Positions 1,520 through 63,538 of a stretch of 64,000 nt of DNA are shown here, in pieces. This stretch comes from a candidate division KSB1 bacterium (GTDB taxonomy: Bacteria > Electryoneota > RPQS01), in contig JACRMR010000012.1 in the NCBI GenBank assembly GCA_016214895.1, positions 423,142 to 487,141 on the forward strand, read 5' to 3'. The position numbers and the translations under genes are program-made. Every line of letters starts with the position of its first letter. Position 1 is the stretch's first letter. Below the pieces are notes generated by a model that saw nothing but the letters and a program-made list of their open reading frames with translations, searched no databases and was not told the DNA's origin.

Positions 1520-1885
1520 CCAACCGGGGTGGTGACGAACGATACGGTACTTGGCCGGGGATTTGGTCACCGCCTGCTGATGCCGAACCGACCCTATCTA
1601 ACTTCCCCGGAAACCGGGGAAGGACCCGACGGATTACGGCAGGGTCGGGAGACGAGCGATGCGGCACTTGAGCAGGGTCACGGTCCCTGGATGGCGATGC
1701 CGAACCGACCCCATCTAACTTCCCCGGAAACCGGGGAAGGACCCGACGGATTCCGGCAGGGTCTGGAGACGAGCGATGCTGCACTTGGGCAGGGACACGG
1801 TCCCTGAATGGTGATGCCGAACCGACCCCATCTAACTTCCCCGGAAACCGGGGAAGGACCCGACGGATTACGTCGGATCTGGAGA
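1520..1885. repeat. Array of 117-bp tandem repeats, about three units, in the convergent intergenic region
   Basis: The start ATGCCGAACCGACC recurs at 1580, 1697 and 1814, an exact period of 117 bp. Units 1580-1696 and 1697-1813 are nearly identical; the third breaks off around 1880. A diverged copy of the second half of the unit precedes them (about 1520-1579). Each unit contains the palindrome CTTCCCCGGAAACCGGGGAAG and a second palindrome of the type GCAGGGACACGGTCCCTG. The unit length is a multiple of three, so open frames run through it on both strands, but nothing suggests translation. The whole gap 1444-2048 holds only this array and two terminators. Confidence 0.85.
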
Positions 1886-2048: not shown

Positions 2049-4121
2049 TTACTTCATCAAGAGCATTTTGCGAATGGCCGTGAAGTCGTTGGCTTCCATC
2101 CGGTAGTAATAGAGGCCGCTGGGCAGCGTGGCCGCATCGAAGGTGACCGCATGGGCACCGGCAGTGAGATTGCCGCTGACCAACGTCCGTACTTCCTGAC
2201 CGACCAGATTGTAAACCGACAACTTGACGTACGATGCGGCCGGAAGTTCGAAGCGGATTTCCGTCGCAGGATTGAAGGGATTCGGGTAGTTCTGTTCGAG
2301 CGAGTAAGCTGCCGGAAGTGTTCCAGCCTGATCATCGGCCGCCGTACCGGCGATACCGTTACCGCGAACCAGAATTGTCAGGTCCGGATCGTTATTCGAG
2401 TTGTTGGTGATCGCCAGCAAGCCGTTGTAAGCGCGGACCGCCGAGGGGTTAAACGTGAGCGTTACCAGCTCGGAATCCTGCGCCGCCACGGTAACCGTCG
2501 CGGGAGCGATCGTGTACGCCGAACGAATCGAGGCCGGCGTGAGCTGCATTTGGGTTATGTTCAACGCGTCCTGGCCGCCATCATTGTGAATCCACAATTC
2601 GACCTGCGAATTGGTGGTGCCGGTCGTATCCACGTCGCCGAAGAACAAGGTGTCCTGACTGAGGCGAATGACGGGGAAGGGCGGCGATTGGCTGGACGTG
2701 TCCACGTAGGCCTGCAGACACCAGTTGCCCGACTCATCGACGAACCACTCGCCACCGTCACTGGCCGCCTGATAGGAGATCACACCCATGTTCGTGATCC
2801 CCGCGCAGTTCGGCGGGCTGTCATCCTTGCCCAAACCGACTGCACCCTGGAAGAGGTAGGCAATGGTAAACGTGCCCTCGAAAACCAAGACCGGAGGATT
2901 GACCGGGATCGAGTTCCAGCCGACGATAACTGCCGGGGTTGACGTCCACAGCGGGACGCCGGCGGGCAGACCATCCTCGCCATTCAGATAGATGCGAAAA
3001 TCGCCGGCGCCGGCGGTACCCACCGCCACCCGAAGTGATTCAATCGAAGCCGGATAGGTGGTCGGCGTGTAGGCAACGCCCCAGCCGTTGCCCTCCGAGA
3101 AGCCGACGGAACTTTCGGGTGCTCCGTTGTCATCATAACGGTACCAACGGTGATTGCCACCTGCGAAAAAGCGCAGGTTGGTCACATCATTCTCGGCGTT
3201 CGCATCGCTGTCATTCGCGACGGTGCAGGTCACGAAGTACTCGCCCGCGGTGTTGCAGGTGAACGTCGCGGGAGCGTCGATCGTGGCCAGCGCGTCACGC
3301 GGAATCGCATCGGCCAGCACGTCATCCTCATAGACAACGCCACCACCGGGACCCTCGACGGACCAGGCCACCACGTAGTTCGGGATGTCACGATTGCCGG
3401 TATTCTCGATAATCGTGTGCAGCGTGATCTCTTCGCCGACTTCTACATTGAATGACGGCTGGTTGGCCGAGGTCGTGTTGTAGCATTCGCGGGCGGTGAG
3501 ATCATAGAACGCATCGCCGATCAAACCGCCGACGCGAATGAAGAAGTCGCCGCCAGTGGCCTGGTACGTTCCCATGCGGCCGCCGGTGAACGCAATTCGG
3601 CTACGCTGGTTCGTGTTCGCATTGTCCAGCAGGATTTGAAAACCGCCGGTGGCCTGATTACCGCCCGGGACCGGACCGAGGATCACGAGAAAGTCCGTAT
3701 TCGCCGCGATTTCAACCGTGTCCGGAGCGTTGGTATCATTCCATGTGAAATCGGGCAACGGGCCATCGACTCGCCAGTTGGCGAGCACAGCACCGGGCTG
3801 AGTGCCGTTTGGTGTGCAAACGTAAACGGAGCACGGAGCAGCGTTCTGGATCGCATTCAGAGAAGCGAAATAGACGCTCACCAGCCGAAACGTGGCTGGC
3901 GCCGTAAAACGCGTGTAGATCCAGTAGTTGAGCTGCGGATAGTAAGCCGACGGATTGTCGTCATCATAGATGATAGAGTCCGGCTGCGGGTCGTCGAGTG
4001 TGCCTCTCCAGTCCAGCCCGCCCGCCGGAAGGAGACTGTAGTCCACCATCACCGGTTCATTGGCGAAGGCTGCGCCCAGAAGCGCGAGCATGCCGATGAC
4101 CATCAAAGCTCTAAACAACAT
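2049..4121 (-). CDS. Secreted protein with C-terminal type IX secretion sorting domain
   Basis: 690 residues. The ATG at 4121 is chosen over an in-frame start 18 codons upstream because it opens a signal peptide (MLFRALMVIGMLALLGAAFA) and has AGAGGA about 9 bases upstream. The middle contains a CARDB-like beta-sandwich (ITLHTIIENTGN, about 235-320) and a 'choice-of-anchor D'/ASPM-like domain (VELWIHNDGG... LTFNPSAVRAYNG, about 510-600). The last 80 residues are a T9SS type A sorting domain: SLEQNYPNPFNPATEIRF, then a short beta-domain ending in basic residues. Family knowledge: such proteins cross the outer membrane by T9SS and are often cleaved and anchored. No enzymatic domain is recognisable. 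It is a monocistronic gene with its own terminator and a probable sigma-54 promoter at 4274-4290. Confidence 0.88.
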   Translation of the reverse strand: MLFRALMVIGMLALLGAAFANEPVMVDYSLLPAGGLDWRGTLDDPQPDSIIYDDDNPSAYYPQLNYWIYTRFTAPATFRLVSVYFASLNAIQNAAPCSVYVCTPNGTQPGAVLANWRVDGPLPDFTWNDTNAPDTVEIAANTDFLVILGPVPGGNQATGGFQILLDNANTNQRSRIAFTGGRMGTYQATGGDFFIRVGGLIGDAFYDLTARECYNTTSANQPSFNVEVGEEITLHTIIENTGNRDIPNYVVAWSVEGPGGGVVYEDDVLADAIPRDALATIDAPATFTCNTAGEYFVTCTVANDSDANAENDVTNLRFFAGGNHRWYRYDDNGAPESSVGFSEGNGWGVAYTPTTYPASIESLRVAVGTAGAGDFRIYLNGEDGLPAGVPLWTSTPAVIVGWNSIPVNPPVLVFEGTFTIAYLFQGAVGLGKDDSPPNCAGITNMGVISYQAASDGGEWFVDESGNWCLQAYVDTSSQSPPFPVIRLSQDTLFFGDVDTTGTTNSQVELWIHNDGGQDALNITQMQLTPASIRSAYTIAPATVTVAAQDSELVTLTFNPSAVRAYNGLLAITNNSNNDPDLTILVRGNGIAGTAADDQAGTLPAAYSLEQNYPNPFNPATEIRFELPAASYVKLSVYNLVGQEVRTLVSGNLTAGAHAVTFDAATLPSGLYYYRMEANDFTAIRKMLLMK

Positions 4122-62274: not shown

Positions 62275-62402
62275 ATTGGAAGGAATGGATACCGAAATCA
62301 CCTGCCATCATCACCGCCAGCCCGGACAAACCGGGACCGGTTTCACAATTCACCTTTCACAAGTCTCTTCCCACTTCGCCTGTAAGCCGAATTCTGTGCT
62401 CC

Positions 62403-62436
62403 CTCGCCGAGCAGGGACGGTGTCCCTGCCGGATTC
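62403..62436. repeat. Palindromic repeat copy A, inside rnpB (P19 position)
   Basis: Hairpin GCAGGGACGGTGTCCCTGC at 62411-62429 with the shared flanks TCGCCGA before and CGGATTC after. Confidence 0.85.
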
Positions 62437-62627
62437 AGAAGCGACGGTCATCTGTCTGGGCCGCCGATTACTCGAACGGCTCGTTGCGGCCTACCCGCCG
62501 CGTCTTGCGCCCTCCGGGCCGAAGGGACTCACGGCTTACTTGGCCTTGCTCCGAACGGGGTTTGCCTTGCCACGGATGTTACCACCCGCGCGGTGCGCTC
62601 TTACCGCACCATTTCACCCTTACCGAA

Positions 62628-62710
62628 AAGAAAACTTCAAATTTGAAACGTGAAACTTGAATCCCGAATTAGCAACATCAAGTTTCAAGTTTGAAGTTTC
62701 AAGTTTTCTT
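62628..62710. repeat. Long AU-rich inverted repeat forming P12 of RNase P RNA
   Basis: Arms 62628-62660 and 62679-62709 are reverse complements over about 33 bases with four mismatches, around an 18-nt loop. Both arms are built from short TTTGAAG/CTTCAAA and AAACTTGA words and are strikingly AT-rich in this GC-rich gene. Confidence 0.85.
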
Positions 62711-62808
62711 CCCGGCGGTTTGCTTTCTGTTGCACTTTCCGTTGCGTCACCGCACCCGGCCGTTAGCCGGCGCTCTGCCCTGTGGAGTTCGGACTTTCCT
62801 CGAGTCGT

Positions 62809-62841
62809 TCGCCGAGCAGGGACTGCGTCCCTGCCGGAATC
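62809..62841. repeat. Palindromic repeat copy B, inside rnpB (P3 position)
   Basis: Hairpin GCAGGGACTGCGTCCCTGC at 62816-62834 with flanks TTCGCCGA and CGGAATCC, as in copy D. Confidence 0.85.
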
Positions 62842-62888
62842 CCGATCCCGCGACCGTCCGGCGAACTCGGAAGAGAAATCTATCGTTC

Positions 62889-62921
62889 ACCCCGTGCAGG
62901 GTCTCCTGACCCTGCCGGAAT
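62889..62921. repeat. Palindromic repeat copy C, diverged
   Basis: Hairpin GCAGGGTCTCCTGACCCTGC at 62896-62915 followed by CGGAAT; compensatory A-to-T/T-to-A change in the stem. Lies between the lipoprotein gene and the RNase P 5' end. Confidence 0.75.
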
Positions 62922-62933
62922 AATGATCACGCT

Positions 62934-62966
62934 CGCCGAGCAGGGACTGGGTCCCTGCCGGAATCC
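62934..62966. repeat. Palindromic repeat copy D
   Basis: Hairpin GCAGGGACTGGGTCCCTGC at 62940-62958 with flanks TCGCCGA and CGGAATCC. Directly after the lipoprotein stop codon on the - strand, where it could act as a terminator stem. Confidence 0.8.
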
Positions 62967-62968
62967 TG

Positions 62969-63538
62969 CTACTTGCGCGTCTTCGGCACCGGCGGTATCG
63001 CCCGCAGCGCCGCGCGAATCGATTCGTTCACGAGCGAATCAATCTCTGCCGACGTCGGGACATGTGGCACCGGCTGCACGGGCGTCAATCCCGGAGGAGG
63101 CGGCACCGACAGCGAGTCAAACTGCGCCGACATGCGCTCGTTCGTCTGCTCCAGCGCGAGCAATTGCCGCTCAACCTGCCGCATCAGTGAATCCAGATTC
63201 ATCACCACCCGCTCGTTCCCCGGCAAGAAATCCAAGGCGCGCACTTCGTCCAGCATGCCGCGCGCGATCTCGTATTCCCCCGCCTTGAGCTGCTCCTTAA
63301 TCTCGTCGGTCGTTTCCGTGCGCTTGCCCACGCCCGCACGCTGCTGAATCTCGCGCGCCTGGTTCGTGTCCGGACTTGCGGGATAGCGTTTCAAAAACGT
63401 CTGCACGTTCAGCAGCGCACCGTCAAAGTCACCGCCATCCACCGCCCGGTCCGCCTGCCGTAACAGCACCAGCCCCTGCGATTCACAGCCGGCAAACCAT
63501 ACCGACAGCATCGCCAGCGTGACAACGCGCGCGATCAA
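62969..63538 (-). CDS. Lipoprotein with TPR-like region
   Basis: 189 residues. Lipoprotein signal with lipobox-like WFAGC (Cys at residue 18), then helices of TPR type (LRQADRAVDGGDFDGALLNVQTFLKRYP, EIKEQLKAGEYEIARGMLDEV), a coiled-coil stretch (LMRQVERQLLALEQTNERM) and a Pro-rich region. Function unknown; acylation would use Lnt (7153-8655). Overlaps the RNase HI-like gene by 4 bp. Confidence 0.7.
   Translation of the reverse strand: MIARVVTLAMLSVWFAGCESQGLVLLRQADRAVDGGDFDGALLNVQTFLKRYPASPDTNQAREIQQRAGVGKRTETTDEIKEQLKAGEYEIARGMLDEVRALDFLPGNERVVMNLDSLMRQVERQLLALEQTNERMSAQFDSLSVPPPPGLTPVQPVPHVPTSAEIDSLVNESIRAALRAIPPVPKTRK

Follow-up and report, generated by a model that had tools for sequence, protein, structure and literature searches.

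The gene for RNase P RNA, rnpB, carries inserts in three helices in the genome studied here, RNase P being the essential RNA enzyme that matures tRNAs. We conclude that the palindromes in helices P3 and P19 are very probably copies of a dispersed element, which we name REP-A and which is likely mobilized by a REP-associated tyrosine transposase (RAYT), that the arm at P12 is an unrelated heptamer repeat, and that inserts at the tips of these three helices are most likely tolerated. The window, the 64,000-nucleotide stretch of DNA that was analyzed, belongs to the genome labeled G000, and its relatives are labeled from G001 onward.

The RNase P RNA gene and its three inserts

The rnpB gene lies on the minus strand of the window at 62367..62869 (503 nt). 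In a cmscan search this region matched the model RNaseP_bact_a (RF00010) end to end, over the full model positions 1-367, with 271 bits and an E-value of 2.3e-87 (gathering score 100), which places the RNA in class A and bears out the identity given to it in the initial annotation, which had suggested folding it with a class A covariance model. The gene is single copy, as this was the sole RF00010 match genome-wide. In the covariance model alignment the conserved core motifs and the remaining helices are present, and the RNA runs far past the model consensus in P3, P12, and P19.

REP-A is a palindrome of the form ATTCCGG-stem-TCGGCGA, and two copies on the minus strand form the apices of P3 (62809..62840, ATTCCGGCAGGGACGCAGTCCCTGCTCGGCGA, with a perfect 8-bp stem) and of P19 (62404..62435, AATCCGGCAGGGACACCGTCCCTGCTCGGCGA, with one change in the 5' flank). 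A further minus-strand copy lies upstream of rnpB at 62933..62964 (ATTCCGGCAGGGACCCAGTCCCTGCTCGGCGA). The palindrome core, GCAGGGAC-N3-GTCCCTGC, is found in these three copies at 62816-62834 (P3), 62411-62429 (P19), and 62940-62958 (upstream). A diverged fourth copy on the minus strand, also upstream of the gene, occupies 62896..62921 and reads GCAGGGTC-TCCT-GACCCTGC-CGGAAT on the plus strand, its palindrome spanning 62896-62915 and its other flank being changed. The initial annotation had assigned two copies of a repeat to P3 and P19 and two more to the region just upstream of the RNA, and all four were found where it had put them. In the predicted fold, P19 of G000 consists of a host stem, an internal loop, and a hairpin with a bulge. 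The 32 letters of the P3 copy recur identically at G000:C21:27275 and 27399. Within the window there are five matches to the palindrome with at most three mismatches, vs. 0.40 expected, and none of 100 shuffles of the window reached five. A second cluster of REP-A-type palindromes was observed at the start of the window (1672-1690, 1789-1807, 1908-1940, and 1946-1984).

The P12 arm is extended by an imperfect hairpin of heptamers (AAACTTG/AAACTTC) at 62628..62715 on the minus strand, as recognized from its inverted repeat, the insert relative to the model, and BLAST. This insert of ~88 bases is built of heptamers (AAACTTGAAACTTCAAACTTG...), and the arms of the inverted repeat lie at 62623-62660 and 62678-62715. 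BLAST gave 97 matches to the element in its own genome, with dispersed copies that have the same hairpin layout as the P12 insert, and a tandem array of AAACTTG with a period of 7 extends for >400 bases at G000:C20:347950-348374 (L105 and neighboring loci). Dispersed tandem heptamers of the STRR type are thus present within P12 of G000, and the arm is a second dispersed repeat, unrelated to REP-A. The dispersal of the heptamers was established in G000, and other genomes were judged from a few neighboring sequences. The proposal in the initial annotation that a housekeeping RNA had taken up the same dispersed element twice therefore stands for REP-A in P3 and P19, and falls short in number, the inserts being three with that in P12.

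Dispersal of REP-A and a candidate mobilizing transposase

Genome-wide, the palindrome occurs in G000 at 25 places with at most one mismatch. A search with the pattern ATTCCGG-N12..26-TCGGCGA, in which the stem is free and the flanks are constant by construction, gave 86 matches in G000 vs. none for the control, the same pattern read backwards, and the matches are balanced in orientation (40 to 46). REP-A is hence a short palindrome dispersed in many copies, and the same flank-pattern search identified many copies in G001, G005, G008, G009, G011, and G012. The stems vary widely yet pair at 298 of 328 positions in 41 distinct copies, vs. 204 on average and 231 at most when halves of different copies were joined, indicating that the stems vary by paired changes. 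A chance origin for the matches was considered and rejected on the window shuffles (0/100) together with the genome-wide count of 86 to 0.

On contig C7 of G000 (L057), a gene of 162 residues has two REP-A copies on each side, in opposite directions. Its product, RAYT-A, passes the NCBIfam model NF047646, "REP-associated tyrosine transposase," with 89.4 bits, as does RAYT-B, a protein of G001, with 102.1 bits (cut-off 80), and the RAYTs match Pfam Y1_Tnp above its cut-off. A search of the PDB with RAYT-A returned no match. RAYT-A genes flanked by inverted REP-A were also found in G005, G010 (a variant), G011, and G012 (L069). A RAYT gene between inverted REPs is the layout called a REPtron (PMC3733652, PMC8266576). 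As the dispersed palindrome stands in inverted pairs round a RAYT gene, we consider the palindromes to be REP elements of a RAYT system; judged by sequence, REP-A is likely a REP element whose mobilizer is a RAYT of the HUH/Y1 family. The foot of REP-A lacks a GTAG or CGTC tag, its flanks being ATTCCGG and TCGGCGA, while a different palindrome, REP-B (CTAGCC-AACACGC-TCCYG-CGTGTT-GG), has CTAG. The tag of REPs is "most often GTAG" (PMC8266576), which makes it usual and not universal, so that its absence alone is not defining against membership.

Occupied and empty helices in related genomes

We compared twelve rnpB genes of the family and its sister family. P3 contains REP-A in G000, G008, and G009, REP-B in G001 and, in the opposite orientation, in G005, and a third palindrome, CATTGC..CAACGGCGA, in G004; it is short in G002, G006, G007, G010, G011, and G012. 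P12 has hairpins of the heptamer type, mutually unlike in sequence, in G000, G001, G002, G005, G007, and G008, while in G009 and G012 it contains REP-A; G004, G006, and G010 have a short P12. P19 contains REP-A in G000, G001, and G008; G005 and G007 have other palindromes there, and in the remaining genomes the helix is short or missing. The sister genes with and without the element that the initial annotation had advised looking for therefore both exist, and G006 and G010 represent short, empty versions of the helices. That annotation had also held that P3 and P19 would be ordinary helices if repeat-free relatives had the same sequence there, or if the repeat were absent elsewhere in the genome; in the event, the helices of G002, G006, G010, and G011 are short and different, and G000 has its 86 exact-flank copies.

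REP-B was found dispersed in G001, G007, G008, and G011, and the CATTGC palindrome in G004, G005, G008, G011, and G012, with the exact P3 sequence of G004 found again elsewhere in that genome. The P19 palindrome of G005, REP-C, has three copies vs. one in the control, and that of G007, when examined as one more candidate repeat, is not dispersed; some of the long P19 helices here (G005, G007) may be ordinary. When folded, nearly all of the P3 and P19 inserts form a hairpin atop a short host stem, the exception being P3 of G001, where part of the flank has other pairing partners in the minimum-energy fold. A scan for REP-A in P19 of named genomes identified one record, JAQTRJ010000037.1 (an unclassified bacterium MAG), which matches G008. 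All eight REP-A copies within rnpB (G000, G001, G008, G009, and G012) have the same orientation relative to the RNA, and these represent few independent events. In another family of the phylum (G033, L152), P12 of rnpB contains CCACGGACTGAAGTCCGTGG, which looks like yet another type of dispersed palindrome.

Trees were constructed from RpoB and from the rnpB core without inserts. The cores of G000, G001, and G008 group together (94/96 in the core tree), so that REP-A in P19 of these genomes may be one inherited insertion. The core of G000 has the longest branch of this tree (0.21 vs. a median of 0.059), so this RNA may be fast-evolving in the parts beyond the inserts as well. On a conservative count, read from the tabulated helix contents and not from a formal reconstruction, about seven insertions are needed: in P3, REP-A, REP-B, and the CATTGC palindrome; in P12, the heptamers, and REP-A in two families; and in P19, REP-A. 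As far as the sequences allow us to judge, the arms of rnpB have been colonized several times in the family, by at least three palindrome families.

Other structured RNAs were checked for inserts by length in the small number of genomes with complete genes. None was detected in ten complete copies of tmRNA (354-364 nt) from nine genomes, six of them in the family or sister family, or in the complete 16S rRNA copies of three family genomes (1525, 1530, and 1536 nt). The several insertions seen in the family would make rnpB a recurrent site of landing or of survival. A hotspot beyond chance does not follow from this, because REPs occur in clusters and insertions elsewhere are purged by selection. 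Comparison of close sisters recovered no exact empty site together with its target.

Possible routes of insertion and comparison with known systems

The spacer that separates rnpB from the RNase HI gene (window 62870-63534; L061, L062, L064, L072, and L161) differs in gene content in nearly every relative, containing a lipoprotein gene, a RAYT gene, a HEPN/nucleotidyltransferase pair (G008), a MazE/ParE-like pair, or others, and for this reason it resembles a hotspot of integration. G008 also has a partial duplicate of the 3' end of its RNase HI gene. Immediately upstream of rnpB, G001 and G009 have a RAYT-B gene that is surrounded by REP-B copies. G009 also has a broken duplicate of the rnpB 5' end, 34 nt in length (L062 3198-3231; 32 of 34 letters the same, by eye), which terminates precisely at the P3 tip, where a REP-B copy lies, and is followed by RAYT-B, REP-B, and the intact rnpB. 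In G005 a longer broken 5' duplicate (L072, about 3991-4080), whose P3 contains the CATTGC palindrome, precedes the MazE/ParE-like gene pair and, after it, the intact rnpB. In both genomes the P3 palindrome of the broken duplicate differs from that of the intact copy. The duplicates may have arisen through entry of the RAYT itself at P3 or through recombination between REPs.

This arrangement raises the question of whether the inserts were acquired from exchange among the REPs that surround rnpB, through recombination or gene conversion, and not by RAYT-catalyzed insertion. We hold this to be possible, if doubtful, as a full explanation. REPs or RAYT genes are directly upstream of rnpB in G000, G001, G008, and G009, there are the broken duplicates of G009 and G005, and differing REP families occupy the same P3 tip within one genus (G001 vs. 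G008; G005 vs. G009), all of which speak in its favor. However, recombination needs a palindrome already in the helix, and so explains exchange and not first arrival, and it leaves REP-A in P12 and P19 unexplained. Another, unlikely reading is that rnpB is a true homing site of RAYT elements. In genus g6 and its relatives, a RAYT gene would then have come in at the P3 tip together with its REPs, with a broken 5' duplicate left behind upstream (as in G009) and the intact gene on the downstream side. RAYT genes are generally regarded as immobile, and if this were true it would represent a route for a RAYT to enter, and shelter in, an essential RNA gene.

The explanation we favor is that of RAYT-mobilized palindromes tolerated at helix tips. 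A RAYT, being a domesticated transposase, would move REP hairpins as single-stranded DNA; insertions into the RNase P core would be lost by selection, and those at the tips of P3, P12, and P19 would survive since the palindrome can fold as a continuation of the host helix. Where one REP has been replaced by another at a given tip, recombination with REPs adjoining the gene may have played a part. P3, P12, and P19 are without sequence conservation in other RNase P RNAs and were left unaligned in an alignment paper (PMC4264200), which, with the core intact here, agrees with the initial annotation that the element sits where helix length is free to vary. As these lengths are free to vary, the inserts are most likely tolerated, and we infer that the palindromes are actively transposed, that the inserts are near neutral, and that the RNA bearing them is catalytically active.

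It is quite improbable that the inserts have instead been co-opted for use, such as in stabilizing the RNA or in peripheral contacts. The copies in rnpB have stems that pair perfectly or nearly so, and the shared orientation of all eight REP-A copies in rnpB, vs. 40 to 46 genome-wide, would fit a function, but many dispersed copies have equally good stems and the two REP-B copies in P3 are oppositely oriented. Further, which insert is present, if any, varies from genus to genus and even inside one genus, empty forms are common, and the rnpB repeats of cyanobacteria are reportedly dispensable in vitro. It is scarcely credible that the hairpins of P3 and P19 are variable helices of the usual kind whose likeness to the repeat is accidental or due to convergence on a stable stem, for although few helices of RNase P RNA are less conserved than P3, P12, and P19 (PMC4264200), dispersed copies elsewhere match all 32 letters of the P3 copy, the copies have flanks outside the stem in common, 86 genomic copies compare with none in the control, and relatives without REP-A have unrelated short helices.

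RAYT-type palindromes can, on the favored explanation, colonize an essential catalytic RNA repeatedly, and their positions map where the enzyme tolerates added structure. The occupied and empty versions of P3, P12, and P19 represent a natural set for testing whether peripheral RNase P helices matter, and the RAYT genes beside rnpB, with the broken 5' duplicate, offer a setting in which to study the movement of REPs and RAYTs. Long P3, P12, and P19 arms in other lineages may share this origin and be misread as evolved helices.

To our knowledge, repeat invasion of RNase P RNA was known earlier from cyanobacteria only, and by another kind of repeat. The cyanobacterial STRR repeats reportedly lengthen P12, differ between close strains, and are dispensable in vitro; that case is not known to extend beyond P12, to include REP palindromes in P3 or P19, or to have a transposase nearby. 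The P12 insert here closely fits this description, and the resemblance is one of layout only: in both, dispersed heptamers lengthen P12, related strains have unrelated repeats, and the core is intact, whereas the bacterial group is another, apparently unrelated one and the heptamers are others. Heptamer STRR repeats within rnpB of heterocyst-forming cyanobacteria are attributed to Vioque (1997, NAR 25:3471) in a paper that cites that work (PMC2858038). The statement in the initial annotation that no such arrangement in RNase P was known overlooks these heptamers, and is right to the extent that they are a different kind of repeat.

The palindromes share with described REP/RAYT systems (PMC3116915, PMC3733652, PMC8266576) their shortness and dispersal, a bulge near the foot, occurrence in pairs and clusters, and inverted placement round a RAYT gene. 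They differ in that REP-A is without GTAG/CGTC and that copies are inside an essential structured RNA. A survey of REPs describes many inside protein genes and leaves RNase P RNA and tmRNA unmentioned (PMC3733652). Rickettsia palindromic elements are likewise palindromic repeats within functional genes, but they are listed in protein-coding genes and belong to another bacterial group (PMC3733652). In the open literature, with most subscription journals outside its scope, we found no paper on Rickettsia palindromes in RNase P and none linking REP elements to RNase P RNA, and RAYT-type palindromes in RNase P RNA appear to be undescribed. What is new here is the invasion of RNase P RNA by dispersed repeats in the form of RAYT-type palindromes, in uncultured bacteria and with inserts in three helices.
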